From positions 1-22,764 of the IMG/VR virus record IMGVR_UViG_3300032083_003479: a stretch of 22,764 nt of DNA. The stretch is one strand, 5' to 3'. The notes below the pieces were generated by a model. That model was not told the DNA's origin and made no database searches. It saw only the letters and a program-made list of their open reading frames with translations. This DNA comes from a virus. Position 1 is the first letter of the stretch, and every line of letters starts with the position of its first letter. The position numbers and the translations under genes are program-made. Positions 3,894 through 22,764 of this stretch are shown here, in pieces.

Positions 3894-4202
3894 TCAGTCC
3901 TGTTCGCCCAGCAGGCGCTGGTGATTGGCGAATGCCTGTTGCGCGGTGACGGGCGGGAAGCCCCGGCCCAGGCGATTGGCGCGGGCAGACAGGCGGCGGC
4001 TTTCGGAAGCGAGATTGTCGGCCAGGAGCCGGCCCCCTTCCTTTTGCAGGGCGCGCCAGGCGGGGCGGTCGCCAGACCGGTAGGCGGCGATCAGCGCCAG
4101 CGTCAGGCGGCGCGGCAGGACGGCAAAGCAGCGGGCGCAGACGCGCTGCCAGCGGAAACGGTTGCGGGTGCAGCCGGTGACGTCGCAGCGATGCTTAGCC
4201 AT
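3894..4202 (-). CDS. Small Cys-containing phage protein, probable zinc binder
   Basis: A 102-aa protein that begins MAKHRCDVTGC and carries four cysteines within the first 25 residues (C6, C11, C22, C25), a probable zinc knuckle. A basic helical body follows (RRLTLALIAAYRSGDRPAW and on). The ATG at 4202 overlaps the preceding gene by 8 nt. A longer frame to 4373 has no Cys or order in the added part and is a shadow. Function is unknown; DNA or RNA binding is plausible given the zinc site and charge. Confidence 0.65.
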   Translation of the reverse strand: MAKHRCDVTGCTRNRFRWQRVCARCFAVLPRRLTLALIAAYRSGDRPAWRALQKEGGRLLADNLASESRRLSARANRLGRGFPPVTAQQAFANHQRLLGEQD

Positions 4203-4389
4203 GATGCCGCCCCTTCGTGCCGGTGCAATCGGGGCAGATCGCGCCGCCGGCGACGGCCTTCCATGTTTCGGGCAAGGTGCCATCGGGCGAGTGATTTTCG
4301 ACCTGGCAGCGGGCGCAGATGACGGTGCGGGTATGCGGCATTGTGAGCGGCGCGCGCTGATCGCGCGCCGCAATGCGGTGCTTGGTCAC
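4195..4389 (-). CDS. Small zinc-ribbon protein
   Basis: A 64-aa protein with two CxxC pairs: CARC around residues 26-29 and CPDC around 52-55. This spacing is typical of a zinc ribbon. It starts with GTG at 4389, sharing GTGA with the stop of the primase-helicase gene, so it is translationally coupled to the replication protein. An in-frame ATG at 4341 is an alternative start. It may be an accessory of replication or transcription; the family is not recognised. Confidence 0.65.
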   Translation of the reverse strand: MTKHRIAARDQRAPLTMPHTRTVICARCQVENHSPDGTLPETWKAVAGGAICPDCTGTKGRHHG

Positions 4390-7028
4390 AGGACATTCTC
4401 CGGGTTTTGAGGGTTTTCGAAGACCCAGCAGCGCACCACCTGCCCTGCGGGGTTGTTCACATTTTCGCTGGCGCCCAGGAATTTGCGGGACTTGGATCCG
4501 CGCAGCAGCTTCTTGAGCTTGTCGATGTCAGGCGGGATGATGCCCGCATTGCGGCAGCGGGATTCGAATTCGACCAGGCGAATGGCGATCTTGCCGGGAT
4601 CGCGATGCTGATTGATGGATTTGCCTTCGTCGTGATCGGTCAGCTTTTCGCGATCGAGCAGGAATTCCACCTGTTCCCAGAAGCGCGCGACCAAGGGATG
4701 GTCGCCGCCGCAGGATTGCTGGCGGTCCAGCGCCATGCCGTCGACCAGCTGCAAGGTTTCGGCGATCCATTCGGGACGGATGGACGGGAAGAGGTGCGGC
4801 AGCGCCTCGACAGCGGCGGCGAGCTGCGAATGCGTCTTGATCGGGCGGCTGTTGACCAGGCCGGGCACGCGGCGCGGCATGTCACGATCATGGGCGGCGA
4901 AGCGGTCGAAGAAGAAGGGGAGGAATTTGGCTTCGTTGCGGACGACATGGACGACGGTGCCCGACACTTCCTCCATCGGCCAGGTTTCGAGGCGAATGGC
5001 GGCGTCCTTGGTCGCTTCGGACCAGCGCGCCTTGTCGATCGCCATCGACATGAGGCGTTCGAGCACGGCGGGGTGCGCGTCGATCCGCTCATTCTGCATG
5101 AGGTAGATCGCGCCCAGGAAAGGCGGTTCCGACGTTTCATAGCCGCCGGATTTCTGGCCCAGGCCGCGCGGGGAGCGACCGCCATAGAGGACCAGCAATT
5201 CGTTATAGTCGAACTGGCGCGTGCCGGTGCGCTTGTCATCGTCGCGGCCGCCCTCGATCAGGCCGACGGGCAGGTTCGCGACCTTGAGCAGGCTGCGCGC
5301 GATAAAGGCGGGTGTGCCCTTGTTGGGATCGAAGCCTTCGTAGCCGGACCGCCCCGCGAGCTTCCACATGAATTCGACCAGGGTGGATTTGCCCGAGCCC
5401 GGCGGCCCGGTCAGTTCCAGGAAACCAAGCGATTTATGTTTCTCGCGGATCTGGACCGCGAAAAAGCTCATGACGAAGAAAGCGAGCGTGATCAGCCCCT
5501 TGGGGCCGTAAGCGGTCCAGACGTCATCGACCCATGCAAAGGCGATGCGATCGGGATCATATTGGATATCGAGCAGGCGTTCGGCGCTGCGCAGCTTCAC
5601 CGCCTGCTGGCCGAAATCGAAATAATTTTCGCTGTTTAGCTTTTCGATGCGGCCTTCCCGCACGGCGAAGTCGCCAAAAAGCCAGGCCCGATGCGGGGCC
5701 GAATAGCCAGTGAAGGGGATGGGCTCGACCACCTTGAGCTTGCGCGTCTGGTTGCGCATCAAGCGGTCCAGCTGTTCGCCCGAGCCGCTCCACATGCCAG
5801 CGAAGTCCATCAGCCGTTTCTTGAATTCGCCCGAGCTGGCGCAGGCAGCGGCGCTGAAACGCGCCTTTTCCGTGCCCTGATCCGGGAAGTCGATCTGGAA
5901 GAAATAATTGGTTTCGTCGGCAATCGCGTCGCGTTCGCGGTAGAGCATGCGGAAGGCGCAGTTGGCGATTTCCTCGACGATCAGTTCATGCTGTTCGTCC
6001 TTCCAGCTGCTGCGGCACCACCAGAGGCGATTGCCGTGGCGGAAGTCGAAGCTGGCCAGCGCCTTCTTGTCGAAGATGAGGCGCGCCTTTTCGCGCGGCT
6101 TTTTCGCCAGGGTGACGTCGCCGTTCCAGCAATAGTCGGCGATCATTTCGGGCGACAGGGGGGCCCTGTCCCGATCGCCCTTCCACTGTTGATGGCGCAG
6201 GAGGAGGTCGTTCCAGTCCAAGGTGGTGCCTTCGCCATCGGGGCGGACCTGGGCAGCGCTGGCGGGCCAGCCTTCGTCGGCCGCGCGGTCGACGAATTTG
6301 CGGGTCCATTTCACGCCGGCGGCACCGGGGTCGAAGGCGAAGACCAGTTCGGGCCTGGTCGGCCGCTTGATGGCGCGCAGGGCGTCGTTCAGCTGGGCGA
6401 GGAAATGTTCGGGCCAATAGTTGCAGGACATGGCCGACACCGCGAGCAGGCCCGCGCCCTGGAACAGCGCCTGGGCATTGAAGATCCCTTCGGTGATGAA
6501 GATGCGATCGGCCTGGGCGCAGTCCTGCATCGTGACATGCGGGGGCATCCAGACATGGCCGCCGGGCTTGCCGCCCTTCTTGAAATGCGCCTTTTTCCCA
6601 AAGCGACCGGGGCGGTCGATGATCCGTTCCCACCAGGTGTCGCCGATCGGGAAGCGCACGGTCGCGGCCGACTGGTTGGTTTCGGGATCGTGGTAGACTT
6701 CCTGGCTATAGGCGCCGCGCAGATATTGGAGGTCGAAGCCCCGTTCGTGCAGCAGATAAGCATCGGCGGCGGCGGTGGGGTTGACGTCGGTCGTGGGGAA
6801 GCGGCGCGACCAATCCTCAAACAAGTCGGGCAGGAGGTTGCGGACGCTGCCCTCATAGCCGCAGCGTTCCTCTCGCGAACAGCGGACGATCTTGGGGTTT
6901 TTGGCCGAACAATATAGTTCCCACTGTTTGCAGTCAGGGCATTGCCCTTCCTGCATCCATTCGCCCTTGGGCTTTCGGAAGCGGAAGCGGTCCTGCAGGG
7001 ATTTGAGGATCTGGGCTTCTAGGTTCAC
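4386..7028 (-). CDS. Toprim primase-helicase (phage replication protein)
   Basis: An 880-aa replication protein. The N-terminus has a CHC2-like zinc-binding region with C30 and C33 and more cysteines at 40, 50 and 56. A Toprim-like domain follows, with the acidic ITEG at 178-181, FAFDPG at 230-235 (the usual DxD pair appears as D-P-G) and a further acidic DWND at 271-274. The C-terminal half holds a P-loop, GPPGSGKST at 541-549, for the helicase ATPase. The combination fits a fused primase-helicase that unwinds and primes the phage origin. The start is GTG 7028, in a GTGA overlap with the upstream gene. It is the largest gene of the early operon. The origin itself is not identified. Confidence 0.88.
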   Translation of the reverse strand: MNLEAQILKSLQDRFRFRKPKGEWMQEGQCPDCKQWELYCSAKNPKIVRCSREERCGYEGSVRNLLPDLFEDWSRRFPTTDVNPTAAADAYLLHERGFDLQYLRGAYSQEVYHDPETNQSAATVRFPIGDTWWERIIDRPGRFGKKAHFKKGGKPGGHVWMPPHVTMQDCAQADRIFITEGIFNAQALFQGAGLLAVSAMSCNYWPEHFLAQLNDALRAIKRPTRPELVFAFDPGAAGVKWTRKFVDRAADEGWPASAAQVRPDGEGTTLDWNDLLLRHQQWKGDRDRAPLSPEMIADYCWNGDVTLAKKPREKARLIFDKKALASFDFRHGNRLWWCRSSWKDEQHELIVEEIANCAFRMLYRERDAIADETNYFFQIDFPDQGTEKARFSAAACASSGEFKKRLMDFAGMWSGSGEQLDRLMRNQTRKLKVVEPIPFTGYSAPHRAWLFGDFAVREGRIEKLNSENYFDFGQQAVKLRSAERLLDIQYDPDRIAFAWVDDVWTAYGPKGLITLAFFVMSFFAVQIREKHKSLGFLELTGPPGSGKSTLVEFMWKLAGRSGYEGFDPNKGTPAFIARSLLKVANLPVGLIEGGRDDDKRTGTRQFDYNELLVLYGGRSPRGLGQKSGGYETSEPPFLGAIYLMQNERIDAHPAVLERLMSMAIDKARWSEATKDAAIRLETWPMEEVSGTVVHVVRNEAKFLPFFFDRFAAHDRDMPRRVPGLVNSRPIKTHSQLAAAVEALPHLFPSIRPEWIAETLQLVDGMALDRQQSCGGDHPLVARFWEQVEFLLDREKLTDHDEGKSINQHRDPGKIAIRLVEFESRCRNAGIIPPDIDKLKKLLRGSKSRKFLGASENVNNPAGQVVRCWVFENPQNPENVL

Positions 7029-7300
7029 CGGGGCGCGCCCCCCGTGACCAGGCGGAGGGTCGGCGCGGCGCGCGGGGCGCGGATGGGGTAAGGGCCGGTA
7101 TAAGGGCGGGCGGGGCCACGCGCAGGATCCGCGCAGGCCCCGCAGAGACGGACGAAGCCACGGTCATTCTGGAAGGCGTCGAACAGGGTGCGATAGCGGC
7201 CGCCGCATCCGTCGCAGGCAGGCATATGGCGCAAGTCAGTAGGCAAAGCGTCCCCCTCGGCCGCAACACGGCCGTCAGTCAGTTCTGGTTTTCGGTGCAA
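7025..7300 (-). CDS. Small zinc-finger-like phage protein
   Basis: A protein of up to 91 aa with CDGC (residues 29-32) and CGAC (53-56), a four-Cys zinc site similar to small phage regulators. The C-terminus is Pro/Arg-rich. The longest start is TTG at 7300. A TTG at 7246 behind a GAGGGGGA stretch, or the ATG at 7225, could be the true start, and all keep the Cys pairs. It ends in a GTGA overlap with the primase-helicase gene. Function unknown. Confidence 0.6.
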   Translation of the reverse strand: MHRKPELTDGRVAAEGDALPTDLRHMPACDGCGGRYRTLFDAFQNDRGFVRLCGACADPARGPARPYTGPYPIRAPRAAPTLRLVTGGAPR

Positions 7301-7310
7301 TTTCCGGCGG

Positions 7311-7682
7311 TCAGCCGGGGTCGAACATCGTCATCTGGTCCGGATCATCCGGTGCGTCGCGGGTGGGCGGCATGACATGCGGCACCTGGTCGCGCGGGCA
7401 GACGGGCAAATCCAGATCGGGCCGGTCGATCAGGCCGGGATTGTAGGAGTGGCGAAACACCAGTTCGAGACCGAAGGTGTGGGCGCAGCCGGTGTTGGTG
7501 CAGTGGGCGTCGATATGCTTCACCCGTTCGGTCACACGGACACTGCGGCGGATGAAACAGGGCGCATCGCATTTCGGGCAGGTAATGAGCGCATTATGCT
7601 TGGCACGCTCGCCGCCCGAGCTGGTGCGGAATTGCAGCGGCGCTTCGATCAGCGGCCGCGAGGGATGACGGTTCATGTTCAT
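7311..7682 (-). CDS. ogr: Ogr/Delta-type zinc-finger activator of late genes
   Basis: A 123-aa protein whose middle matches the Ogr/Delta family of P2/P4: CPKCDAPCFIRRS, then HCTNTGCAHTFGLEL. This gives the CxxC...CxxxxC zinc site and the conserved Thr-Phe after the last Cys. In P2-like phages this protein activates late tail and capsid promoters together with host RNA polymerase. It has about 30 extra N-terminal residues and about 45 C-terminal residues compared with the 72-aa P2 Ogr. The ATG at 7682 is chosen because it overlaps the upstream stop as ATGA. Unlike P2, where ogr lies after gene D, it sits in the early operon. Confidence 0.82.
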   Translation of the reverse strand: MNMNRHPSRPLIEAPLQFRTSSGGERAKHNALITCPKCDAPCFIRRSVRVTERVKHIDAHCTNTGCAHTFGLELVFRHSYNPGLIDRPDLDLPVCPRDQVPHVMPPTRDAPDDPDQMTMFDPG

Positions 7683-8137
7683 GGCTGATCCCCCTTTTCG
7701 CGGCGATCCAAGGCAGCGAGGCCGCTGGTCAGGATTTCTATTGCCTCCTCCACTTCCTTGCGGGTGCGGCGGACGGTGCGATGGTCGCTGCATGCGCTGG
7801 CGCTTATAAGGGCAGCGATGGCTTCGCCTGTTTCCTTGGCCGCTGCCGCAGCAAGGACTGACAAACACAGATCAGGCCCCTCGCGTGACGCCATGTCGAT
7901 CCGCAGGGCGTGCAGGCGGTGAAACGGCGCATGATCGCCGCCGTGGTCGAGAAAGGCCCGATCAAGGCGTTCCGCGTCGATCATGCGAATTTCCGTTTCG
8001 CAATCGGGGTCCGACCAGAGCCGCACGGTGCGATCGGAGCGCACCCCGCAAATGGCCGCGCAACGATCCCAGCCAATCAGGGCGGCGACCTTTGTGAGAG
8101 TGTATTGATAGGTAAGAGGTTCGCGGATCTTGGTCAC
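7679..8137 (-). CDS. Putative CII-like phage regulatory protein
   Basis: A 152-aa protein. The N-terminal part (LTKVAALIGWDRCAAICGV, then RTVRLWSDPD) looks like a helix-turn-helix read-out similar to P2-like CII/CP76 proteins, followed by helices rich in Ala and Glu. It starts with GTG 8137, sharing GTGA with the Cro-like gene, so it is second in the leftward early transcript, exactly where a CII-type regulator would be. The assignment is by position and loose similarity; it could also be an unrelated structural helper. Confidence 0.5.
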   Translation of the reverse strand: MTKIREPLTYQYTLTKVAALIGWDRCAAICGVRSDRTVRLWSDPDCETEIRMIDAERLDRAFLDHGGDHAPFHRLHALRIDMASREGPDLCLSVLAAAAAKETGEAIAALISASACSDHRTVRRTRKEVEEAIEILTSGLAALDRREKGDQP

Positions 8138-8478
8138 AGAGCGGCCCCCTTCGAAACTTGCTGACGTTTGAAGGAGACGGCGGCTTTCCGACTATCTAGC
8201 CCGCTATTGCGGGCTCCAACCCGCCGATCGGCCCCATGAAAGCGCACCGGGGCAGGTGGCATATCAACAGGGTAAATGTCGGGCCGCAGCCAGTGCCGGG
8301 AAACGCCAGAGGCCGCTTCAACGCGCAGGACATATTCGGGAGGAATACGCTTTGAGCTTTGGACCCATTTCCAAACCGCCGTTGGAGAGACGCCGCAAAT
8401 TCGGGCCAGCTCCGACTGAGACCCGAGGCTGTCCAGCGCCAGCTGCAGCGCTTCATAGGGAGTGAATGTTTCAACCAT
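8134..8478 (-). CDS. YdaS/Cro-like helix-turn-helix regulator
   Basis: A 114-aa DNA-binding protein. The HTH is at about residues 8-33 (ALQLALDSLGSQSELARICG and on), with the recognition helix in VSPTAVWKWVQ. It is followed by the IPPEYVLRVEAASGVSRHWLRPDIYP signature of YdaS/Cro-type phage regulators. It is the first gene leftward from the operator and faces the S24 repressor, so it most likely acts as the Cro counterpart that allows the lytic programme. I use the ATG at 8478; a start at 8529 would run through the operator. There is no Shine-Dalgarno sequence before 8478, and the possible promoter lies so close that the mRNA may be leaderless. Confidence 0.8.
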   Translation of the reverse strand: MVETFTPYEALQLALDSLGSQSELARICGVSPTAVWKWVQSSKRIPPEYVLRVEAASGVSRHWLRPDIYPVDMPPAPVRFHGADRRVGARNSGLDSRKAAVSFKRQQVSKGAAL

Positions 8479-8484
8479 GGTTGA
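8471..8484. promoter_or_regulatory. Perfect 14-bp palindrome over the Cro-like start codon
   Basis: TCAACCATGGTTGA reads the same on both strands and contains the start codon of the Cro-like gene (8476-8478). Its CAAC/GTTG half-sites recur in the intergenic region: GTTG at 8498, 8523 and 8547, CAAC at 8512. This suggests an operator for the Cro-like protein or the S24 repressor, able to block both transcription and translation start. Confidence 0.5.
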
Positions 8485-8563
8485 TGATTTAACTAAAGTT
8501 GATGGCGATCGCAACAAGAAAAGTTGCATCGCTCAATTTTACCAAGGTTGTAATGATCGCCCT
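8479..8563. promoter_or_regulatory. Divergent promoter/operator region of the lysogeny switch
   Basis: This AT-richer gap of 85 bp separates the Cro-like gene (left) from the repressor gene (right). GTTG half-sites occur at 8480, 8498, 8523 and 8547, and a GTTG-N10-CAAC inverted pair spans 8498-8515. On the minus strand a -35-like TTGCGA (8509-8514) and -10-like TAAATC (8486-8491) are 17 bp apart and would start RNA right at the Cro-like start codon. No equally good promoter for the repressor is visible. Confidence 0.5.
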
Positions 8564-9229
8564 ATGTTCCGGCGCGATCGACTAGTGGCCCTGATGGCCG
8601 AAAAAGGCATGACGCAAAGCGAACTGGCACGCCGCGTTGGCGTGTCAGCCACGGCCATCTGGAAAATGATGAATGAGCCCGCGCAGGGATCGAAGCATAC
8701 GCACAAGATTGCGCGCGAGCTGGAGACGTCGGCCGAATATCTGATGGGTGAAACCGATGACGGGTCGACGTCGCGGCAGCTGGTCGCGGCACCGGTAGGC
8801 GGGGAAGAACCCGACAGCGATATCGTCGAGATCGACAGTATCGACCTGAAATTCGGTATGGGTGCCAGCTTTCTCGACACCGATCATGTCGACGTGGAAA
8901 AGGTCAAGTTTTCGGCGAGCTGGATCCGGCAGTTCACCAATGCTTCGCCAGACATGCTGTGCACCACGAAGGGCATGGGCGATTCGATGATGCCGACGAT
9001 CCATGACCAGGACATCGTCATCATCGACCGCTCGCAGACGCGGCCCGAAATGGGCGACATGATCTGGGCGGTGGTCTATTCGGGCTGGGGGATGATCAAG
9101 CGGCTGCGCGCATTGCCGGATGGTCGTATTCGCATCAGTTCCGACAATCAGCTGGTCCGCGACGAATATGCGGCCGACGGCGAGTTGTTTATCGTTGGTC
9201 GCGTGATCGCGGCGGTGAAGAGCCTTTGA
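8564..9229 (+). CDS. S24/LexA-like prophage repressor
   Basis: A 221-aa C2/CI-type repressor. The N-terminal HTH spans about residues 5-55, with MTQSELARRVGVSATAIWKM as the helix-turn-helix. The C-terminal S24 peptidase fold has the catalytic Ser141 in MGDSMMPTI and Lys179 in GMIKRL. The hinge (65-115) has no Ala-Gly or Cys-Gly pair, the usual self-cleavage site, so RecA-driven autocleavage is uncertain. The frame is open upstream to 8462, but the ATG at 8564 starts the HTH domain at the usual distance and leaves the operator free. It is divergent from the Cro-like gene and coupled to the HIRAN gene. Confidence 0.92.
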   Translation: MFRRDRLVALMAEKGMTQSELARRVGVSATAIWKMMNEPAQGSKHTHKIARELETSAEYLMGETDDGSTSRQLVAAPVGGEEPDSDIVEIDSIDLKFGMGASFLDTDHVDVEKVKFSASWIRQFTNASPDMLCTTKGMGDSMMPTIHDQDIVIIDRSQTRPEMGDMIWAVVYSGWGMIKRLRALPDGRIRISSDNQLVRDEYAADGELFIVGRVIAAVKSL

Positions 9230-9654
9230 TGATCAGCGACCGGCTTCCCGCGATGTCGCTGCAGATCAAGGGGCTTGGCTTTCCCAATCGCGACGGTTCC
9301 GACCGTCGGTTCGAGGCGCTGTTGTGCCATCCAGGCGATCGGGTGGAGCTGCGGCCCGAGCCGAAGAACAAGCATGATGAACTGGCAATCGGGATATTTT
9401 CGGAGCGGGGCGCGCAGCTGGGCTATGTGTCGGCCGAGCGGTGCGGGCACATCGGGCAGCTGATCCGGCAAGGCCGCGAGGTGCAGGCGATCTTCCAAGG
9501 GCAGACGGACAGGGGGGCGTGGATCCGCGTCGCGTTCGATGGGGAAGCGCCTGCAGTGCCGGAAGAACGAGCAGAAGCGCCGCAACGGAGCGCGGCATCA
9601 GCGCAGTCGCCAGCACCTGACTTCTATCCGGATGAGGAATGGCCAGACGACTGA
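9229..9654 (+). CDS. Stand-alone HIRAN-domain protein
   Basis: A 141-aa protein with a HIRAN domain across about residues 10-105. Landmarks are LQIKGLGFPNRDGSDRRFEAL, then LRPEPKNKHDELAIGIFSE and GAQLGYVSAERCGHIGQLI. The rest is a Pro/Ala/Glu-rich acidic tail ending in DEEWPDD. HIRAN domains in SWI2/SNF2 enzymes such as HLTF and Rad5 bind DNA ends; stand-alone bacterial and phage copies are thought to recognise damaged DNA. The ATG at 9229 shares its A with the TGA of the repressor, so the protein is made in lysogens with the repressor. The acidic tail could mimic DNA or contact partners, which is inference. Confidence 0.82.
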   Translation: MISDRLPAMSLQIKGLGFPNRDGSDRRFEALLCHPGDRVELRPEPKNKHDELAIGIFSERGAQLGYVSAERCGHIGQLIRQGREVQAIFQGQTDRGAWIRVAFDGEAPAVPEERAEAPQRSAASAQSPAPDFYPDEEWPDD

Positions 9655-9687
9655 TGGTCTGCATCATCATTGTCTAAAGGGGGCATT

Positions 9688-10236
9688 ATGAAAAAAGGTA
9701 TCATAGCTGTCATCGTGCTGATCTTTGCGGCCGGTTTGACATGGTATTTTGCTTCACCAAGTCTTGCGATGCATGGGCTAAAGGAAGCTGCGATCAACGG
9801 TGACAGGGAAGAGCTAAAGGAACGGGTCGACTTTCCTGCCGTCCGGGAATCACTCAAGAGCCAAGCCAAGGCCCATATGGTGATGGAGATGCAGAAGGAG
9901 CAAAGTGATAACCCCTTCGCGGCACTTGGCATGGCGATGGCTGGCGCAATCGTCGATCCTATGATTGATGGCATTGTCTCACCTAGCGGTATCAAGGCCA
10001 TGGTGCAGCAGGGACGAATGGTCGCAGATCAGAAGGATACGGACCTCCAGCCCGATGCGAAGCCGGCTGAATGGAATATCGATCGGCGCAGCTTCGACAA
10101 ATTTATCGCTACGCCGGAAGTCCAAAATGGCGATCGCGCCCCCTCTCTCGTTTTTGAGCGAGACGGATTGGGATGGAAGTTGGTCGACGTTGAAATTCCG
10201 GAAGGCGGACTGTCGGCTGCAGATAAGGCCCAATAG
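9688..10236 (+). CDS. Membrane-anchored DUF2939 protein
   Basis: A 182-aa protein with an N-terminal signal-anchor helix (about residues 2-26, GIIAVIVLIFAAGLTWYF) and a body that fits DUF2939. The family hallmark VDFPAVRESLKSQ follows a short helix (LKEAAINGDREELKE). The start is ATG 9688 behind AAAGGGGG at 9676-9683. It follows the repressor and HIRAN genes, on the same strand, and its stop lies 2 bp from the convergent stop of gene D. No phage role is known. Its position next to the repressor makes it a candidate lysogenic-conversion gene acting at the inner membrane or periplasm. Confidence 0.75.
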   Translation: MKKGIIAVIVLIFAAGLTWYFASPSLAMHGLKEAAINGDREELKERVDFPAVRESLKSQAKAHMVMEMQKEQSDNPFAALGMAMAGAIVDPMIDGIVSPSGIKAMVQQGRMVADQKDTDLQPDAKPAEWNIDRRSFDKFIATPEVQNGDRAPSLVFERDGLGWKLVDVEIPEGGLSAADKAQ

Positions 10237-10238
10237 GG

Positions 10239-11231
10239 TCAGGCGCTTTCGAGCGCGATCCTTTGTCGAATTCCACCAGCACCGAAGGTCGTTTCGACGC
10301 TGTCGATCAACCAGGCGACGGCGTCGATCCGGCTGTTCCAGCCCGACAAGGTGAGCTTGCGCCCAGGCGTGATGCGGCAGTCGGCCAGCGCCAGGTCATA
10401 TTCGAAGCGATAGCCGCCGCGCGCGCGCTTCTTCCTTTCCGCTTCGGCGGCCTGTCTGGCTTCGGCTTCGCTGGCGTAGACGCGTTTGAGGCGCTTGGGG
10501 TTGTCGCCGCCTGTCGAGTGCTTGCGGCGGCGGCCAGCGGCCTGGTCGTGCCATTGGGCCTCCACCCCGTCATTTTCGTCCCGCTGGGCGTGGGTGAAGC
10601 TCCAGCGCCAGCCATCCTGGCGCGTCAGGGTCATGGCCGGGATCGCAGTCCCCCTGGCGGTGGTTGCGCTTCCCACTGGCATGAAGATCAGGCGACGATC
10701 CTTCCAGGTCGCGACGGCATCAAAGCGACTGCCGAGATCCTTGACCAGCGCCATGTCGCTTTTGCCGTGCTGGTCGAGCGTGGCGATGATCTTGCCAGCG
10801 AGATCGGGGTGAACCTGGGCGGTGATCCCGTGGCGGCCCGCAATGTCGGTCAGGATGGCGCCCAGCGTCTTGTCGCGCCAAGTGCGGGTGCGGCGCTTGC
10901 GATAATCGCCCGACAGGTCGGCCGAACGGGCCCGGATCGTGATCTGATCGGGTGGGCCGGATGCCTCGACTTCGTCGACGGTATAGCGGCCCTTGTCGAT
11001 CAGGCCGACACTGACGTCGTCGCCCTGTTCCCAGCCCAACGCCAGCGCGATGACCTTGCCGGGGTCGGGCATGGCCAGACGGCCATCGGCATTTTGCAGG
11101 GTGAGGCTCAGTTCGTCGGCTTCGCCGCCGGTCTTTTCCGTGAGGGTGAGCTCCACCAGGCGCGGGTTGACCTTGTCCATCAGGTCGACGCCGTCGAGGG
11201 TGATGCGCGCCTGCGCCTTGTTCGCGGTCAT
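10239..11231 (-). CDS. D: Tail protein D (P2 GpD-like, late control/spike hub protein)
   Basis: A 330-aa homologue of P2 gene D, the gp27-like hub that joins tube and spike. Typical parts are ITLDGVDLMDKVNPRLVELT at the start, LIDKGRYTVDEVEASGPPDQ at about residues 76-95, and IRARSADLSGDYRKRRTRTW, all characteristic of phage late control gene D proteins. The Arg/Lys/Glu-rich helix EARQAAEAERKKRARGGYRF lies near the end. The ATG at 11231 overlaps the U stop (ATGA). A longer frame to 11369 is a shadow. It is the last gene of the late operon. Confidence 0.9.
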   Translation of the reverse strand: MTANKAQARITLDGVDLMDKVNPRLVELTLTEKTGGEADELSLTLQNADGRLAMPDPGKVIALALGWEQGDDVSVGLIDKGRYTVDEVEASGPPDQITIRARSADLSGDYRKRRTRTWRDKTLGAILTDIAGRHGITAQVHPDLAGKIIATLDQHGKSDMALVKDLGSRFDAVATWKDRRLIFMPVGSATTARGTAIPAMTLTRQDGWRWSFTHAQRDENDGVEAQWHDQAAGRRRKHSTGGDNPKRLKRVYASEAEARQAAEAERKKRARGGYRFEYDLALADCRITPGRKLTLSGWNSRIDAVAWLIDSVETTFGAGGIRQRIALESA

Positions 11232-11635
11232 CCGTCGACCCGTCGCAAGTCCATGGTGAAATTCTGCCCACGCGGGAGGCCGCCGGCCATGATCCCGACA
11301 TGTCCGGTGTCGATCGCCTCGATCCGGTAATGGCCAAGGACGCGACCAAGCCCGTCCATCAGGGGCCAATTGTCACCGGTGTTGGCCATTTCGATCAGGC
11401 GGCTGATCGCGCCATAGTCGCCGGCGACTTCGGGGACGATCAACGCGCCGATCGTGACGATGTCTTCGCCTGGGCCGGCGAACTGCGCGGCGGGACGAAG
11501 GCCGAAGCGGTCGCTTTCCTCGTGCCGCCAGGACATGCGGCGCTGCAAATCCTGATAGGGGATGGTGTCCATGCCGAAGATGAAGAGGCCGAGCGTCATC
11601 AGGTGAGCCGGGCTTATCAGGGGGAGGGATGCCAT
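11228..11635 (-). CDS. U: Tail completion protein U (P2 GpU-like)
   Basis: A 135-aa protein with the GpU features: an N-terminal LGLFIFGMDTIPYQDLQRRMSW, then GPGEDIVTIGALIVPEVAGD and a C-terminal GVLG-like region (DGLGRVLGHYRIEAIDTGH). In P2, U caps the head-proximal end of the tail tube and helps set tail length. The ATG at 11635 overlaps the T stop by one base (TAATG), and the gene ends in an ATGA with D. This T-U-D order is that of P2. Confidence 0.9.
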   Translation of the reverse strand: MASLPLISPAHLMTLGLFIFGMDTIPYQDLQRRMSWRHEESDRFGLRPAAQFAGPGEDIVTIGALIVPEVAGDYGAISRLIEMANTGDNWPLMDGLGRVLGHYRIEAIDTGHVGIMAGGLPRGQNFTMDLRRVDG

Positions 11636-16499: not shown

Positions 16500-16526
16500 C
16501 TTATGACCAGTATGTGCCGGGGTAGA

Positions 16527-16543
16527 AGCCGGTTCTACCGGCT
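16527..16543 (-). other. Hairpin at the SNase stop codon
   Basis: AGCCGGT-AGA-ACCGGCT gives a perfect 7-bp stem with a 3-nt loop at the SNase stop (16543-16545). It could protect or end the SNase segment of the message. It lacks a T-run and is not a classical terminator. Confidence 0.45.
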
Positions 16544-16945: not shown

Positions 16946-17518
16946 TCATTCAGGATTGCCCGTCTTTGCAGTTCCCGCCTGAACGCCACCATGTTTGTGG
17001 TTTTTCAAGCTGATGCCATCGGCCGTGACGTCCTCGCTGGCATCCAGGCGACCAGCCAGGGTCACGTCCCCCTCAATCCGGACGTCGGCCCGAATCGTCA
17101 GGCCGCCCGGTGCCTCGACCAGCGCCGTCGCGCCATCCGGCAGTATGGCCGTCAGGGCATGGCTTTCCGGGTCATAGCCGACTTTGGCGCCATCGGCATA
17201 TTCGATCAGTTCCGCCAGGGTGGAGCCGGGCGGTGGGAACGCATCCTGCCAGATGCCGACCAGGGCAATCGCACCGGCAAGCTGGCCATCGGGTGCCAGG
17301 ACGAGCACCTGTTCGCCTATGCTGGGTGGAGACCATATCCTTGTCGCGCCAGCACGCGGGGCGAGCCAGCGGATTGGGGGTGTTTCCGCGCCGGCATCGT
17401 CGTCATCAGGATCGCCATAGCGAACCGTGCACGTCGCGCCGTCCAAATCGACCGATGCGATGACCCCGATCCGGATCAGTTCCGACAGGTCGGCTGGGAT
17501 GTCTTCCTGTTCCTTCAC
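16946..17518 (-). CDS. V: Baseplate spike protein V
   Basis: A 190-aa homologue of the P2 central spike. The N-terminal OB-like part reads ELIRIGVIASVDLDGATCTV and later RWLAPRAGATRIWSPPSIGE, typical of phage baseplate assembly protein V. The C-terminus forms the beta-helical needle (ADVRIEGDVTLAGRLDASED) and ends with LKNHKHGG, whose H174-x-H176 is the iron-binding tip motif of P2 V. The start is GTG 17518, in a GTGA overlap with the lipoprotein gene, so tail and lysis genes are joined. A second, broken copy of its N-terminus occurs at 19105-19326. Confidence 0.92.
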   Translation of the reverse strand: MKEQEDIPADLSELIRIGVIASVDLDGATCTVRYGDPDDDDAGAETPPIRWLAPRAGATRIWSPPSIGEQVLVLAPDGQLAGAIALVGIWQDAFPPPGSTLAELIEYADGAKVGYDPESHALTAILPDGATALVEAPGGLTIRADVRIEGDVTLAGRLDASEDVTADGISLKNHKHGGVQAGTAKTGNPE

Positions 17519-17652: not shown

Positions 17653-17870
17653 TCGCCGGTGCCTCCATTTTGCGTGCCCGTGAACAGGAATGCCATGACA
17701 AGGCCTATCAGCCCCTGAATCACGATTGCCTGTGCCAGGCTTTTGAACAAGTCGTTCTGGGCCAGCTCGGGGCGGACCAGAATCATCACCAGCACGAAGA
17801 TCGTGAGCGCGAAAGAGCCGCCGCCGGCGACGATGCGGGCGGTTGCCATGTTGATGGGGGGCAGTTTCAC
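17649..17870 (-). CDS. Holin-like small membrane protein
   Basis: A 73-aa protein with two hydrophobic helices (about residues 14-34, GGGSFALTIFVLVMILV; and about 48-65, AQAIVIQGLIGLVMAFLF) joined by a short polar loop. This is a class II holin-like topology, which would release the endolysin or collapse the membrane. It lies directly after the endolysin. I set the start at GTG 17870, where GTGA overlaps the endolysin stop. Longer (GTG 17903) or shorter (ATG 17849) starts are possible. Confidence 0.72.
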   Translation of the reverse strand: MKLPPINMATARIVAGGGSFALTIFVLVMILVRPELAQNDLFKSLAQAIVIQGLIGLVMAFLFTGTQNGGTGE

Positions 17871-18589
17871 CGCGCCATGTCCCCCGTCTTGTCCTTCAAC
17901 CACTGCAGAAACTGAGCCACTGTCTTATTGCGAAGGATGGAGGGGTTCGCTCTGGTCGCCGCCGGGCCGGCAATCTGATCGGCCCTGGCGCCAAGATCCG
18001 CGCCGATGACGGCGGCGGCGGTGACAGGGCCGAAGAAGTGCGCCGCATATAGCGACGCCTTGTTGATGGGGATGCCCTTGCCCTGCAGATATGCGGCATT
18101 CTTCCTCGTGAAAGACTTGGCGCGGTCCGTCTGCTCATCGACCGATGGTTTCAATCCACCGAATGCTTGGCTCATGTCCCCGCCCCATGTCCCGGCCTCG
18201 GCAAGCCATGTCGAGCGGATGAACTGATAGAGGCCGGACGCGCTGGAGGTGGTCGCCTTGACGTAGGGCCGGTCTGCGCTTTCGATCCTGGATAGCATCG
18301 GCCAGTAGGAAGCGGGGATGCCGATCGCGGGGAGGGCTTGCGGCGGAGCGATACGGTCCAGCTTGGCCAACGTGTCGCGTCCAGCCCAGCCATCGATCGC
18401 GAGGCAATGGAGCGCCTGGAAGAAGCGCACGAATGCGTCGTCGTTGAGCGGTAGCGCGCGAACGGAAGCATCCCCCGGCGCGTTCTCCCTCGCTTTAGCG
18501 ACCGTGAGTTGTCCAGCGATGCCATCCTGTTTCATGCCGAAGCGCGACTGGAACAGGACGACAAATGCGTTGTCGGAAATGATGCTCAT
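17867..18589 (-). CDS. Endolysin with lytic-transglycosylase-like domain
   Basis: A 240-aa peptidoglycan-degrading protein. The N-terminus has two tandem helical repeats like peptidoglycan-binding modules (NAFVVLFQSRFGMKQDGIAG at 7-26; DDAFVRFFQALHCLAIDGWAG at 50-70). The C-terminal half is a lysozyme/SLT-like fold with LSRIESADRPYVKATTSSAS, where Glu103 is the likely catalytic acid, then SGLYQFIRSTWLAEAG. It is flanked by the holin and the spanin-like gene. No signal peptide is seen, consistent with holin-dependent release. Confidence 0.85.
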   Translation of the reverse strand: MSIISDNAFVVLFQSRFGMKQDGIAGQLTVAKARENAPGDASVRALPLNDDAFVRFFQALHCLAIDGWAGRDTLAKLDRIAPPQALPAIGIPASYWPMLSRIESADRPYVKATTSSASGLYQFIRSTWLAEAGTWGGDMSQAFGGLKPSVDEQTDRAKSFTRKNAAYLQGKGIPINKASLYAAHFFGPVTAAAVIGADLGARADQIAGPAATRANPSILRNKTVAQFLQWLKDKTGDMAR

Positions 18590-18948
18590 CCGATATCTCC
18601 CAATTTTGCTTCCATGTCGGCAGGAACGTGCAAATGTAGTGGAAATGCATCGCCCAGGATCGCCCTGACCTGCTGCAGCTCCGGGCTGTAGGGATCAGAG
18701 CGATATTCTTTCGCTACCAGGATGTTCACCGCCACGGTTAGACGGGTTATCTTGTCTTCGAGTTGATCCACCCGGAGGTTAAGCGCCTGCACTTTCGCTG
18801 TTTCTTCCCCGTGCAACTTCGCCTCGCGTTCCTGTCGGCGTTCGTCTCGCTTGCCCCACCATTCGATCAGCCAGCGCGCACCCGCCCCCAGGCCGAACAG
18901 GCCGCCACCGCCAAGCAGCCATTGCGCGGTGGTGGGTTCGTCCGACAT
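18586..18948 (-). CDS. Single-TM coiled-coil protein, candidate inner-membrane spanin
   Basis: A 120-aa protein with a short N-terminus, one membrane helix (about residues 9-28, WLLGGGGLFGLGAGARWLIE), then a charged coiled coil (RDERRQEREAKLHGEETAKV, then LRVDQLEDKITRLTVAV). An N-terminal anchor followed by a periplasmic coiled coil is the topology of Rz-type i-spanins and of some phage lysis helpers. It overlaps the endolysin by an ATGA. The ATG at 18948 is preferred over 19017, whose added residues look random. The lipoprotein at 17515 could be its partner, though the two are separated. Confidence 0.6.
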   Translation of the reverse strand: MSDEPTTAQWLLGGGGLFGLGAGARWLIEWWGKRDERRQEREAKLHGEETAKVQALNLRVDQLEDKITRLTVAVNILVAKEYRSDPYSPELQQVRAILGDAFPLHLHVPADMEAKLGDIG

Positions 18949-19104
18949 CACGAAGGTCCGGCGGCCTGGAAGCCGATAGTGTTTCTCATGCTTCCCTCCG
19001 GTGCATTGGCAGAGCAATCATGGGCATGACGCGACGTTGCGCGCGCGCGAAGAGCGGGAGGCGGTATGACCGGGTGCTACCGTGTGGCGCGGGGCGATCG
19101 AGCT
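18949..19104. other. Intergenic gap, no gene seen
   Basis: About 155 bp upstream of the spanin-like gene and downstream of the chimeric fragment. An open plus-strand frame exists but has no family features and is Arg-rich noise. I see no clear promoter or Ogr-type operator here. Confidence 0.4.
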
Positions 19105-19326
19105 TTACGCGACCTCCAACGCCTCCAGCCGCGCGTCAATCACCGCGATCAGGAACAGGGCGAGCTGGTCGGAGCGGATGCCATAGCGTTCGCCAGCAGG
19201 GCGCGCGGGCCGGATGATATCGCCGCTTTCGACGGTGCAGGTGCCGTTCGCAAGATCGATGGATGCGATCGTGCCAAGGCGAAGCACTTCGCCGGCCGCT
19301 GCCTCTGGGTCAATAAAACGCGCCAT
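19105..19326 (-). pseudogene. Chimeric remnant: V-like N-terminus joined to tail-fibre C-terminus
   Basis: A frame of 73 aa (from ATG 19326; up to 77 aa from 19338). The first part, AAAGEVLRLGTIASIDLANG then TCTVESGD, closely matches the V protein start (LSELIRIGVIASVDLDGATC then TVRYGD). The rest, IIRPARPAGERYGIRSDQLA then LFLIAV, is nearly identical to the last 37 residues of the fibre at 21695. The join falls at the DNA stretch where similarity to the fibre gene begins (19220). It lacks the OB core and needle of V and all other fibre parts, so it is most likely a recombination scar, not a working protein. Confidence 0.75.
19111..19220. repeat. 110-bp direct repeat, left copy (fibre C-terminus)
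   Basis: It aligns without gaps to 21701-21810, in the same orientation. I count 6 differences in 110 positions, and the last 49 bp (19172-19220) are identical. The offset is 2590 bp. The repeat encodes the C-terminal end of the tail fibre and bounds the accessory island. Confidence 0.9.
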
Positions 19327-19330
19327 GGCG

Positions 19331-19417
19331 GCGACCATGGCGCGGAGACGCCGGGTGCGCGCCGGTCTGCATATGGAAAGGCCGCCTGTCCATATGCGGT
19401 GGCCCCCCCATGGTCGC
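19331..19417. repeat. Nested inverted repeats at the island's left edge
   Basis: Outer arms GCGACCATGG (19331-19340) and CCATGGTCGC (19408-19417) enclose a second pair, GCATATGGA (19369-19377) and TCCATATGC (19389-19397), with an 11-nt central loop. Such nesting can form a cruciform or serve as a binding site. It lies where the leftward V'-fibre remnant and the rightward island genes diverge. Confidence 0.6.
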
Positions 19418-19553
19418 GGCGACTGATGATGGGGAAAGGTCTGGTTATCGCGATCGCACCATTTGCGTTCGTTCGCCCCTCGACCTTCGTCGGTCGCTGT
19501 GCGAAATAGGAAAGGTCTAGGATTTTTGGATGCTTTGTCGGGGGAAGCGATTC
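19418..19553 (+). promoter_or_regulatory. Presumed promoter region of the accessory island
   Basis: The gap before the first island gene holds a 10-bp direct repeat GGAAAGGTCT at 19433-19442 and 19509-19518, and a CGACC/GGTCG inverted pair near 19480. These may be operators for the HTH protein encoded next. No convincing -35/-10 pair could be fixed. Confidence 0.35.
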
Positions 19554-19943
19554 ATGGTTGCGCGTGCATTGCTGGATGATCTGATTTCTTCGCGCGGTGA
19601 GACCTATGCGCGCATATCACTGCTGATCGGTCGCAATCCCGCCTACATCCAGCAATTTATCAAAAGGGGCAGCCCACGCGCCTTGAGCGTCACCGACGAG
19701 GCGACGATAGCCGCCTATTTCGATCTGGCGCCGGATTTCCTGCGGCGGACCGGGCAAGGGCCGGTCGCCGAGAGCCGCCCCTGGCGAGAACGATCGGACC
19801 TGGGTCAGGCGGCGATTTTGCGAACGCGACAGGCCATGGAACTGTCCGACAAGATCGGCGCATCGATTGCGATCTGCTATCTTCAACTGGCGCTCGACCT
19901 TCTTGAAACCCAAGTGAATGCGAAATCCAGTTCCCCCTGCTAG
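19554..19943 (+). CDS. HTH regulator related to sphingomonad XRE/S24-type N-termini
   Basis: A 129-aa protein. Residues 1-62 form a DNA-binding domain with RGETYARISLLIGRNPAYIQ and QFIKRGSPR as the helix-turn-helix and hinge. The style is that of S24-type regulators in sphingomonads. The peptidase half is missing; instead there is a helical C-terminus (AILRTRQAMELSDKIGASIA). It may be a repressor of the island or a truncated paralogue that competes for operators. The ATG at 19554 follows GGGGAAG; a start at 19530 would add 8 residues. It is first of at least four plus-strand genes. Confidence 0.75.
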   Translation: MVARALLDDLISSRGETYARISLLIGRNPAYIQQFIKRGSPRALSVTDEATIAAYFDLAPDFLRRTGQGPVAESRPWRERSDLGQAAILRTRQAMELSDKIGASIAICYLQLALDLLETQVNAKSSSPC

Positions 19944-19977
19944 CGCCCCCGCATTGAACTCGCTGCGACCGCAAGTC

Positions 19978-20481
19978 ATGGAAAACGGAGATGGAAGCTT
20001 GCCCGAAAAAGCCGTGAAGCTTTCCGAACGTCAGCAGCAATGTCTGCGTCTTGTCGCCAGCGGCATGACATCGAAGGAAATTGCACATCGCATCGGCACG
20101 ACGCCTGGCACGGTGGACAATCATATCCAGGCCGCCATCAAAATCACCGGCGCAGCGACGCGACGTGAAGCGGCCCGCGTTTTTCTGGAGGATGACCAAG
20201 AGGGGGTGCAACGATTGCATATGCAATCGGGAAACCTTGTTTCGCCGCCAGTTTCCGCCATTCTGGACGTATCGGAAGGCAAAGGATCGGAGCATCAGAT
20301 CCGGCGCCAAGCCTTACCGATAAGGGTGGCGAAGTGGGCCAAGCACCATGTGGGAGGATCCAGGCATGACCTATCGAGAACACAGGTGTTGCTTGCCATC
20401 GTGCTGGCCGCGCTTGTGTCGGCGGGTCTGCTTGCCCTCATCATCGCCACCTTCTTCTGGCTGAACATATTATTCAGCTGA
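19978..20481 (+). CDS. Tail-anchored LuxR-type HTH regulator
   Basis: A 167-aa protein from ATG 19978 (187 aa from 19918, which would overlap the previous gene by 26 nt). A LuxR-type HTH spans about residues 14-72: LSERQQQCLRLVASGMTSKE, then IAHRIGTTPGTVDNHIQAAI. A linker with no receiver or ligand domain follows. The C-terminal membrane helix (VLLAIVLAALVSAGLLALII and on, about residues 139-163) lies near the very end, so the DNA-binding part would face the cytoplasm while tethered. This suggests control by membrane release or a membrane signal; that is inference. Confidence 0.78.
   Translation: MENGDGSLPEKAVKLSERQQQCLRLVASGMTSKEIAHRIGTTPGTVDNHIQAAIKITGAATRREAARVFLEDDQEGVQRLHMQSGNLVSPPVSAILDVSEGKGSEHQIRRQALPIRVAKWAKHHVGGSRHDLSRTQVLLAIVLAALVSAGLLALIIATFFWLNILFS
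20460..20478 (+). other. Hairpin at the end of the LuxR-type gene
   Basis: GCTGAA and TTCAGC form a 6-bp stem with a 7-nt A/T-rich loop just before the stop codon. It is a weak transcript-end candidate, with no clean T-tract. Confidence 0.35.
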
Positions 20482-20500
20482 TTTGTCGACCATTTAATAA

Positions 20501-20522
20501 CGCGCGGGCCAAGCGCCGCGCG
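20501..20522 (+). promoter_or_regulatory. GC-rich hairpin abutting a strong Shine-Dalgarno
   Basis: CGCGCGG (20501-20507) and CCGCGCG (20516-20522) form a 7-bp stem with an 8-nt loop. Its last base is the first of GGAGGAG (20522-20528), the ribosome binding site of the next gene. It may tune translation or partly terminate upstream transcription. Confidence 0.5.
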
Positions 20523-20534
20523 GAGGAGAGCGCT

Positions 20535-20912
20535 ATGCCGACGGAAAAGAATGAACTTTTTTCATCCTCGGATCGAAAGATCGAACTTAGCCGAGAGGAT
20601 TTTCATGCGCTGACGGGTCAGCTGTTCGGAGCCTATCACAAGTTGGACGATGCGCTGGCTCACACCCTCCAGATGGCGGGCGAGATGGTCCGCACGGCAT
20701 CACAGTCGGGCCTGCAGCCTGAAAGCGGGCAGTTGCTGTTCGATGACATAACGTCGTGCCTGGATACCATGGTGGCGAGCCGCAAACAGCTGGTGAAAGC
20801 CCATCGCCGCGCCCATGTCATCCGTATGCGGACCACCCAGGCGTTCGAAGGGTGCCCGCCGCCATATGCCGCCGAACCTGATAATGTCATATCTTTGGCA
20901 TCGGTCGGCTAA
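20535..20912 (+). CDS. Helical protein of unknown function in the accessory island
   Basis: A 125-aa soluble protein, mostly alpha-helical. The N-terminus is polar (PTEKNELFSSSDRKIELSRE), the middle has a long helix pair (DFHALTGQLFGAYHKLDDAL; then TMVASRKQLVKAHRRAHVIR), and the tail is Pro-rich. There are two Cys but no clear metal motif. I recognise no family. It has the strongest Shine-Dalgarno sequence of the island (GGAGGAG, 6 nt before ATG 20535). The C-terminal helix-rich form fits a partner or adaptor protein. Confidence 0.7.
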   Translation: MPTEKNELFSSSDRKIELSREDFHALTGQLFGAYHKLDDALAHTLQMAGEMVRTASQSGLQPESGQLLFDDITSCLDTMVASRKQLVKAHRRAHVIRMRTTQAFEGCPPPYAAEPDNVISLASVG

Positions 20913-20939
20913 AGGTTCATCGCAAGAGCAGCGTGGCAG

Positions 20940-21347
20940 GTGATTGCACTGTTTTACTTCGCGGGGCTGATCGCGGTCAGCTGCTATGCCGTGTGCTATG
21001 GCGGGTTCGAAGGCCGGGCGATTTCCGCCATCATATCGGGACTATTCGGGCTGTCGGTCGTCGTGACAATGATGGCGCCAACCTATCAATTTTATGTTTT
21101 GATGGGCTTTGCCATCTCCTGCCTGTCCCTGGCGCTGAAATGCTGGGTCGCGATGGTCAGCTCTCGAAGGTGGCCGATCATCATAGCCGCCTTTCAGCTG
21201 AACATAGTTTGTGCGCAAATATCCATGTTCATCGCGCCCCAATTCAAGACGATGTTTCACTATGCCATGGTCACAATCTGGGCGGCGCCCACATTGTTGA
21301 TATTGGCCCTTGGCGTCTACCTCGACCGTCAACATGACCTGCAATAA
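20940..21347 (+). CDS. Four-helix membrane protein of unknown function
   Basis: A 135-aa integral membrane protein with four hydrophobic stretches: about residues 2-20 (IALFYFAGLIAVSCYAVCY), 28-50, 54-72 and 109-128 (TIWAAPTLLILALGVYL). A further semi-hydrophobic segment lies at 78-98. There is no signal peptide, enzyme motif or charged channel motif. It starts at GTG 20940, 27 nt after the upstream stop, and ends in a short polar tail. It is co-directional with the two regulators, suggesting a regulated membrane activity. No family is recognised. Confidence 0.65.
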   Translation: MIALFYFAGLIAVSCYAVCYGGFEGRAISAIISGLFGLSVVVTMMAPTYQFYVLMGFAISCLSLALKCWVAMVSSRRWPIIIAAFQLNIVCAQISMFIAPQFKTMFHYAMVTIWAAPTLLILALGVYLDRQHDLQ

Positions 21348-21694
21348 GACGATCGACTTTAGGATATCCGGGGACCGGATGCGGCTGGCTGAAAGTTGCA
21401 ACGGCAATGGGGATTAAGAGGCTATGCCCCGTCGCTGCCATCCGATCACTATCCTTCGGGATAAATCCCGCTCCTCTCCCGTTCCCGGACTATCTGCAAT
21501 GCGCCCGTTTTAAAGACTATCCGTCCAAGGTGGCCATGTGCCTGTGAGACGTGCATCATGGGTCGGTGAAGAAGCTCCTCCTGACCATTGAGGCGGTCGT
21601 GATCGTCGGCTGCATGATTGCGGGCATAGCCATAGGGCTGCTCAATCTTGCTCGATTGATAGGGTCCATGTTCCTGTGACACAGCAGCGCGGTC
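21348..21694. other. Intergenic region right of the island
   Basis: It contains two small hairpins: ATCCGG-GGA-CCGGAT at 21366-21380 and a UUCG-tetraloop hairpin at 21450-21463. Neither is followed by a T-run; either could still end the plus-strand transcript. A possible tiny membrane protein (21566-21679) is listed separately. Otherwise I see no gene. Confidence 0.45.
21566..21679 (+). CDS. Possible 37-aa single-pass membrane protein
   Basis: A plus-strand frame starting GTG encodes MKKLLLTIEAVVIVGCMIAG followed by IAIGLLNLARLIGSMFL. It has two basic residues, then an almost unbroken hydrophobic helix. A start at GTG 21551 would add five residues. There is no good Shine-Dalgarno sequence, but a three-codon minigene (ATG 21558) ends in GTGA on the start, which could allow reinitiation. 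The opposite strand also carries a 77-aa open frame without recognisable features. Small hydrophobic peptides like this include type I toxins and small regulators, but the evidence is only composition. Confidence 0.35.
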   Translation: MKKLLLTIEAVVIVGCMIAGIAIGLLNLARLIGSMFL

Positions 21695-22764
21695 CTAGGC
21701 CGCCTCCAACGCCTCAAGCCGCGCGTCATTGACCGCGATCAGGAACAGGGCGAGCTGGTCTGAGCGGATGCCATAGCGTTCGCCAGCAGGGCGCGCGGGC
21801 CGGATGATATTGACCTCGCCGGTCGGTTCCTCGGCCAGATAGGGTTCCATCACTTCGACCTGGCGGTAGATGGGATCGCCTTCATCATCCACGCCGGTCG
21901 GTTCATAGACGGTGACCGGGCGTTCGCGCTCCACAAAAGCCATGACCGGCTCAGTCTCTTCGGCCTCCGCATCCCAGCTGTCGTGGCAGCACCAGCCATA
22001 GCGGCGCCAGTCCAGCCCTTCCTCTTCCATGATCGCGAAGACGCGCTGGGCGCGCGGACCGAAATGGATGCGGGCCGCATCCTCGCCCTTGACGGCGATG
22101 GAATCGAGCCACTGGAAATGGCCCAGCTCCTTCAGGATGCGGCGCCCCGCGCGCAGTTCGGCGTCGCTCATGGCGCCGATCCACTGTTTTTCCGTTTCGT
22201 CGCAGGTCTGGATCGAGCCCGTCGTCGCGTAGATCGTCGTCGCGCGATAGGCGGCCGTGCCGAAGCTGTAGCTGTTATCGACCATGTAGCGAGCGGTGGC
22301 GCCAAGCTGGATTTCGGCCGCCTGGACGAACAGCTTGAGGTCCGAACCGATCTGCACCGCATGACCGAAAGCCGTGCCGCTGGCACCTGTGGCCCGCGCG
22401 CCCAGACGCACCACTTCACCCGGCGTGCCGCTGGTGTCCGCCGTTAGGAACCTGTCGCCGCCCAGCCAGACGTCGAGGCCGCTCCAGGCCGCGTCATTCT
22501 TGCTCGAATTGTAGACGTTGAAGATCTGGTTCGTGCCGTCATACTGCGCCGGCACCGAAAAGCGCACGGTTGCGCTGCCGACGCGCAGGGCGGGCTGGTT
22601 CTGCCCCTCATGATGCACCGCCCATTCGAATGATCCGCCATTGATGCCGGTTGCGCGCGCCCCCGTGGTCATCACCTTGCCGGGCAATCCGCTTTCGTCC
22701 CCCGTGGTGAAGATATCGCCGCCCAGCCACAGGTCATCACCGGACCATCCGGCGTCGTTCGCGG
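21695..22764 (-). CDS. Tail fibre with S74-like C-terminal chaperone domain (partial, runs off the right edge)
   Basis: The frame is open across the right edge, so the N-terminus is missing; 355 codons plus stop are seen. It holds at least two copies of a repeated unit of about 87 aa, marked by NDAGWSGDDLWLGGDIF and NDAAWSGLDVWLGGDRF, each followed by GARATG. The C-terminal region (IYATTGSIQTCDETEKQWIG, then ELGHFQWLDSIAVKGEDAAR and IHFGPRAQRVFAIMEEEGLD) resembles the S74 intramolecular chaperone of trimeric fibres. The usual Ser-Asp cleavage motif reads Cys-Asp here. The last 37 residues are duplicated at 19105. It would bind the host surface; gene position fits P2 H. Confidence 0.82.
   Translation of the reverse strand, partial: ANDAGWSGDDLWLGGDIFTTGDESGLPGKVMTTGARATGINGGSFEWAVHHEGQNQPALRVGSATVRFSVPAQYDGTNQIFNVYNSSKNDAAWSGLDVWLGGDRFLTADTSGTPGEVVRLGARATGASGTAFGHAVQIGSDLKLFVQAAEIQLGATARYMVDNSYSFGTAAYRATTIYATTGSIQTCDETEKQWIGAMSDAELRAGRRILKELGHFQWLDSIAVKGEDAARIHFGPRAQRVFAIMEEEGLDWRRYGWCCHDSWDAEAEETEPVMAFVERERPVTVYEPTGVDDEGDPIYRQVEVMEPYLAEEPTGEVNIIRPARPAGERYGIRSDQLALFLIAVNDARLEALEAA
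21701..21810. repeat. 110-bp direct repeat, right copy (fibre C-terminus)
   Basis: It pairs with 19111-19220. This copy is inside the intact fibre gene, immediately upstream of its stop codon, so it is the original. Sequence identity to the left copy ends sharply after 21810 (GATAT), where the left copy continues into V-like sequence. Confidence 0.9.

Follow-up and report, generated by a model that had tools for sequence, protein, structure and literature searches.

Analysis of a complete virus record of 22,764 bases, referred to here as the window, indicates that the region between its lysis genes and its tail-fibre gene is a mosaic junction between two P2-like lineages of sphingomonad temperate phages, generated by one illegitimate crossover, a reading to which we assign a probability of about 0.8. 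The genes of the window mark it as part of a P2-like temperate phage: those for the tube (FII), sheath, V and W proteins occur together with an integrase and an Ogr/Delta activator, and the Pfam matches (PF04985, PF04984, PF04717, PF00589 and PF04606) correspond to a P2-type tail module, an integrase and Ogr/Delta. An S24-type repressor is encoded as well, and the Ogr/Delta zinc-finger gene (7449-7583) is also present in most of the relatives tested. Sphingomonad genomes contain sequence related to the window, which is a temperate phage of sphingomonad bacteria. The contig represents one single virus record, and a DNA search of phage and plasmid records with positions 17800-22764 returned one weak lysin match only. 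Elsewhere in the window, divergent YdaS/Cro-like and S24 repressor genes at 8134-9229 probably form the lysogeny switch.

The window's own tail genes group with those of four phages, L015-L018, termed here lineage B (75-88% identity for V and 79-91% for the sheath), in which the gene order runs spanin-like gene, lysin, V, W and sheath. In the window, the V, endolysin-like and spanin-like genes lie on the minus strand. Its complete V gene (16946-17518) is of the lineage-B type, being 88% identical to that of L015 and only about 50% identical to the V genes of a second lineage, A. An endolysin-like gene (17867-18589) encodes a peptidoglycan-binding, transglycosylase-like protein, and the adjoining spanin-like gene (18586-18948, with its ATG at 18948) encodes a product with the look of a transmembrane segment and a coiled coil that is 78-91% identical in L015-L019. 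The label "spanin-like", proposed when the sequence was first described, draws no support from any curated protein family; the protein is short and conserved.

Upstream of the spanin-like gene lies an open reading frame of 77 codons (19105-19338, minus strand) whose halves belong to different families: the first 38-39 residues are V-like, the remainder is the C-terminus of the tail fibre, and the two are fused in frame. Family searches with this chimera matched phrog_7121 (E = 5.5e-6) and the baseplate family phrog_6142 (E = 0.03). Inspection of the V-like piece, V' (19222-19338, minus strand), revealed that, judged by its sequence, it is the start of a V gene from another P2-like lineage and was not copied from the V gene of the window. 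The V genes of seven viral contigs, L002-L008 (lineage A), match the first 42 residues at 81-88% identity, and the DNA of the piece, which covers the first 39 V codons, is about 83% identical to theirs, with 95-100 of 118 positions in agreement. These lineage-A V genes are complete (189-194 residues), and their proteins are only about 50% identical to the V protein of the window. Starting at the junction, homology to the seven contigs extends upstream across V' as far as a palindrome (19370-19396), beyond which the sequences are unrelated, such that the foreign piece measures about 180 nt and reaches upstream past the V' codons.

The junction between V and fibre had been placed at base 19220; the junction itself is real, but its position can be fixed only to within the motif ATATC (19215-19219), which is common to lineage-A V genes and the fibre end and is the probable site of illegitimate joining. 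The sequence at this site is GATATC in several V genes of the lineage-A type (L002, L163) and AATATC in the intact fibre gene of the window. As far as ATATC, V' and its leader agree with lineage A, and the sequence on the spanin side matches lineage B, as is characteristic of a mosaic junction. None of the relatives searched holds the V'-fibre fusion, a search of viral contigs with the junction pattern gave no match, and a scan of genome contigs with the chimera returned only one GTA-like fibre end, in a Blastomonas MAG. The chimera is probably a dead, non-functional scar.

The palindrome at 19370-19396, CATATGGAAAGGCCGCCTGTCCATATG, which carries no strand assignment, has the same design as those that precede V in lineage-A phages and marks the upstream limit of the shared sequence; shuffled sequences gave an expectation of 0. 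Comparison of leaders shows that palindrome type is lineage-specific: CATATGG..CCATATG occurs in lineage A and in the leader of V', and the dyad GGTA-N11-TACC occurs in lineage B and in the leaders of the window's spanin-like and W genes. The two lineage-B dyads of the window lie at 19063-19081, between the left fibre end and the spanin-like gene (a position also occupied by the dyad in L015-L018), and at 16521-16539, before W. Leader palindromes of both lineages are accordingly present in one genome, and the foreign one sits exactly on the V' piece. A palindrome scoring at least 10 within 140 nt before V occurs at 45 of 59 V loci, as against 2.7% of random stretches; because a few of these overlap the start codon or are spaced differently, the proportion of loci with a true leader palindrome is somewhat smaller. 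The palindrome sequence shifts between subgroups (CATATGG, CATTTGT, CATTTGG, CATGTGT, CTTGTGT) with the symmetry kept. In L002-L008 and L100-L163 these elements are about 27-40 nt long and lie about 30-45 nt before V; in lineage B the dyad recurs before the spanin-like gene, W and other genes.

These palindromes and dyads look like lineage-specific late-operon sites and are possibly candidate sites for the Ogr/Delta protein. The late operons of P2 have Ogr-activated promoters with TGT-N12-ACA dyads (PMC3931495). The window and its relatives resemble P2 in having dyads before V, the spanin-like gene and W, together with an Ogr/Delta gene in the window itself, but differ in that the dyads are other sequences that vary by lineage, and in the short distance that separates the lineage-A palindromes from the V start.

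The 3' end of the fibre gene (115 nt) is present twice on the minus strand, at 19106-19220 and 21696-21810, the copies being 94% identical over their length, with a longest identical run of 49 nt and a spacing of exactly 2590. The right copy terminates the intact fibre frame (21695-22762), which represents the 3' part of a gene with a Peptidase_S74 chaperone domain; the contig stops before the 5' part is reached. About 20 nt separate the end of the left copy from the lineage-B dyad, compared with about 30 nt between the last tail gene of L018 and its dyad. The preliminary description had reported a direct repeat of the fibre tail around the island and had proposed that recombination between the copies would delete exactly 2590 bp while leaving the fibre frame open. 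Both statements hold, the second in silico: joining the copies removes 2590 bp and yields an open fibre frame, with 0 internal stops, ahead of the spanin-like gene. Its view of the copies as a duplication that bounds a cassette fits less well, and they are better read as parental alleles, since their 94% identity is close to the 92.7% seen between fibre blocks of lineages A and B (see below).

An attempt to assign each copy to a parent by the substitutions that it has in common with L163 failed, with about three sites against two; set against L163, the nucleotide differences between the copies assign neither to A nor to B. Used as a single query against viral contigs, the fibre C-terminus confirmed no relative; L163, reached through its V gene, carries it. 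The window's S74 fibre end also resembles a fibre-like gene that is flanked by capsid genes and head-tail genes in sphingomonad clusters with the appearance of gene-transfer agents (GTAs; L064-L069, L009-L014, L020). The S74 fibre ends from such clusters in sphingomonad genomes (L064-L069) were of no help in assigning the two copies.

Examination of gene neighbourhoods in the relatives reveals that the fibre operon of lineage A lies upstream of V, usually with variable cargo of low G+C content between the two (L002-L008). In L163 the fibre stop (ending at 5908) lies 92 nt before the start of a complete lineage-A-type V match at 6001, with a palindrome and no cargo between them, and the fibre is 68% identical to that of the window over 346 residues and has the same C-terminal motif. 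Alignment of L005 (lineage A) with L018 (lineage B) shows that the two phages share a 3,689-bp fibre block, 92.7% identical, which ends at the last fibre stop codon; beyond this point one continues into cargo, palindrome and lineage-A V, and the other into the lineage-B dyad and the spanin-like gene. This arrangement demonstrates, independently of the window, an exchange of fibres between A and B that is bordered at the fibre 3' end.

These comparisons bear on several further proposals of the preliminary description. Complete V genes matching V', which it recommended seeking in relatives, exist in lineage A; a tail locus with V and fibre genes as neighbours, conjectured there as a source, exists in L163 and, with cargo interposed, in L002-L008; and the idea that a V gene and a fibre end recombined and left a scar is supported by the fusion of a lineage-A V' to the fibre end. 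Conservation of the chimera as a working gene in relatives, named there as evidence that would tell against this idea, did not appear in our searches. A fibre gene directly before the spanin-like gene was also to be looked for, and among the relatives no lineage-B phage with the window's fibre type in that position was found.

In the history that we favour, parent A would have carried fibre, cargo genes, palindrome and V in that order, and parent B a fibre of the same type whose end lay immediately ahead of that parent's own dyad, with the spanin-like gene, lysin and V following. Parent B is itself inferred. An illegitimate crossover at the shared ATATC would then have linked the lineage-A V gene, at codon 39-40, to the end of the fibre gene, at a point 38 codons short of the fibre stop. 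The A side would have supplied the complete fibre gene, the cargo and a dead V stub with its leader, and the B side the last 115 nt of a fibre gene, followed by the lineage-B dyad and the lysis genes. This single event would account for the entire observed order, namely intact fibre, cargo, V leader and stub, second fibre end, dyad and lysis genes. The "repeats" would be the two parental alleles of the fibre end, the left from the B-type parent and the right from the A-type side, rather than a duplication made by the island.

Duplication within one phage, in which the fibre end was copied during cargo insertion and the copies have since diverged, would also give two ends that are 94% similar and retain a 49-nt identical run. 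It needs an outside donor anyway, because V', with its lineage-A palindrome, is foreign to the V gene of the window, and the copies differ about as much as the fibre blocks swapped between A and B; we regard it as improbable. An integrative element that inserted at the fibre 3' end and restored the gene with a copy of the end that it carried, in the manner of elements targeting gene 3' ends, with the repeats as attachment sites, appears less probable still. Such an element would explain why a gene end stands on both sides and why the fibre gene is intact, but site-specific integrative elements encode an integrase or recombinase, and family searches found no recombinase, integrase, resolvase or transposase among the island proteins. 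It also leaves unexplained the V stub and foreign palindrome inside the left repeat, and our searches turned up the island at no other fibre end.

The co-occurrence of both lineages in one metagenome (L005 and L018, sample 3300024309) and the 49-nt identical run raise the question of whether reads from two phages were joined at a shared fibre end during assembly. A misjoin at the repeat would not, however, produce a V stub, and the V'/fibre junction is in frame and rests on only about five shared bases, too short for the usual assembly-graph join, making an artefact very unlikely. A further proposal is that the chimera is a working small gene, or that the palindrome of the V leader still acts as a late-operon site serving the lysis genes. 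The reading frame is open, and most of the codon changes that separate it from lineage-A V genes are synonymous (11-15, against 4-7 non-synonymous), but a recent scar would inherit such an excess from working V genes. Moreover, the V part breaks off after 39 codons, inside the OB domain, the fusion occurs in no relative searched, and the lysis genes retain their own dyad at 19063-19081; function at either element is improbable.

The cargo island (19400-21694) has a G+C content of 57%, compared with 64% in the rest of the window, and its genes lie on the plus strand, antisense to the tail genes. The first, i1 (19530-19943), encodes a helix-turn-helix (HTH) protein that resembles the N-terminal part of sphingomonad regulators (53-61% identical to L021-L025 across about 60-73 residues), a domain common to many sphingomonad proteins. 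The product of i2 (19918-20481) combines a LuxR/GerE-type HTH (PF00196, E = 2e-10) with a hydrophobic, putatively membrane-embedded C-terminal segment; i3 (20535-20912) encodes a small protein that found no match in a search of viral sequences, and i4 (20940-21347) a small hydrophobic, probably membrane, protein. A GTG-initiated frame at 21566-21679 may encode a 37-residue single-span membrane peptide. PADLOC and NCBIfam searches with the island proteins gave weak or generic matches only. Homologues of i2, i3 and i4 (19918-21347) adjoin one another in sphingomonad genomes (L092, L093 and L094, and in part L095-L099), in three cases beside conjugation-like (trb) genes, a label that comes from reading the protein sequences. 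At most, the trio can be described as a putative regulator-plus-membrane-protein cassette carried by mobile elements.

Cargo in the lineage-A slot is of similarly low G+C content (51-56%) and often antisense, differs among L002-L008 and is missing from L163; no lineage-A relative was found with the same cargo as the window. By its composition and replacement in relatives the window's cargo is moron-like, and it would have been carried along in the cross. It resembles the moron loci of temperate phages in being a low-G+C, antisense insert, different in each relative, that occupies a recurring slot separating the fibre operon from either the V or the lysis operon; it differs in that, atypically, a V stub and a second fibre end accompany it.

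Fibre mosaics occur among P2-like phages, and both morons and illegitimate mosaic joints are well established in phages. Exchange of tail fibres by recombination has been documented for the carotovoricin tail fibres of Pectobacterium (PMC13195805). As in such systems, fibre blocks move between the present lineages while flanks differ, which L005 and L018 show directly; unlike them, the window has one illegitimate border, whose traces are a fused stub and an extra fibre end. The window is a well-preserved case of ordinary phage mosaicism plus moron acquisition. It captures an intermediate, a transfer of fibre plus cargo for which both kinds of parental gene order are present in databases and the illegitimate border is still readable, and it points to a palindrome-marked cargo slot at the border of fibre and V, the palindromes varying by lineage, in little-studied P2-like sphingomonad phages. 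The general phenomenon being well known, the gain is mainly illustrative.

A form shorter by the cassette was found neither in viral contigs nor in 398 sphingomonad genomes. Deletion by RecA or phage recombinases acting on the 49-nt identical run would be possible. It seems doubtful that the fibre 3' end is a standing point of exchange and cargo loading and that the 2.59-kb cassette is also lost at a measurable rate between the allelic ends. If so, cassette loss would switch the phage between cargo-bearing and cargo-free forms with slightly different fibre tips, and the exchange point would adjoin the lineage-specific late-operon dyads.

Other slots and contents were seen among the relatives. 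The cargo between fibre and V in L007 includes a glycosyltransferase-61 gene. One lineage-B phage, L016, has about 2.3 kb of extra sequence between its lysin/holin genes and V (9300-11600 of that contig), a second possible cargo slot. In another, L017, cargo between the fibre and spanin-like genes (3997-7489) encodes a GH5 cellulase-family protein, an acyltransferase-3 and a protein with a weak O-antigen-ligase-like match, a combination that suggests a role in surface-polysaccharide modification.
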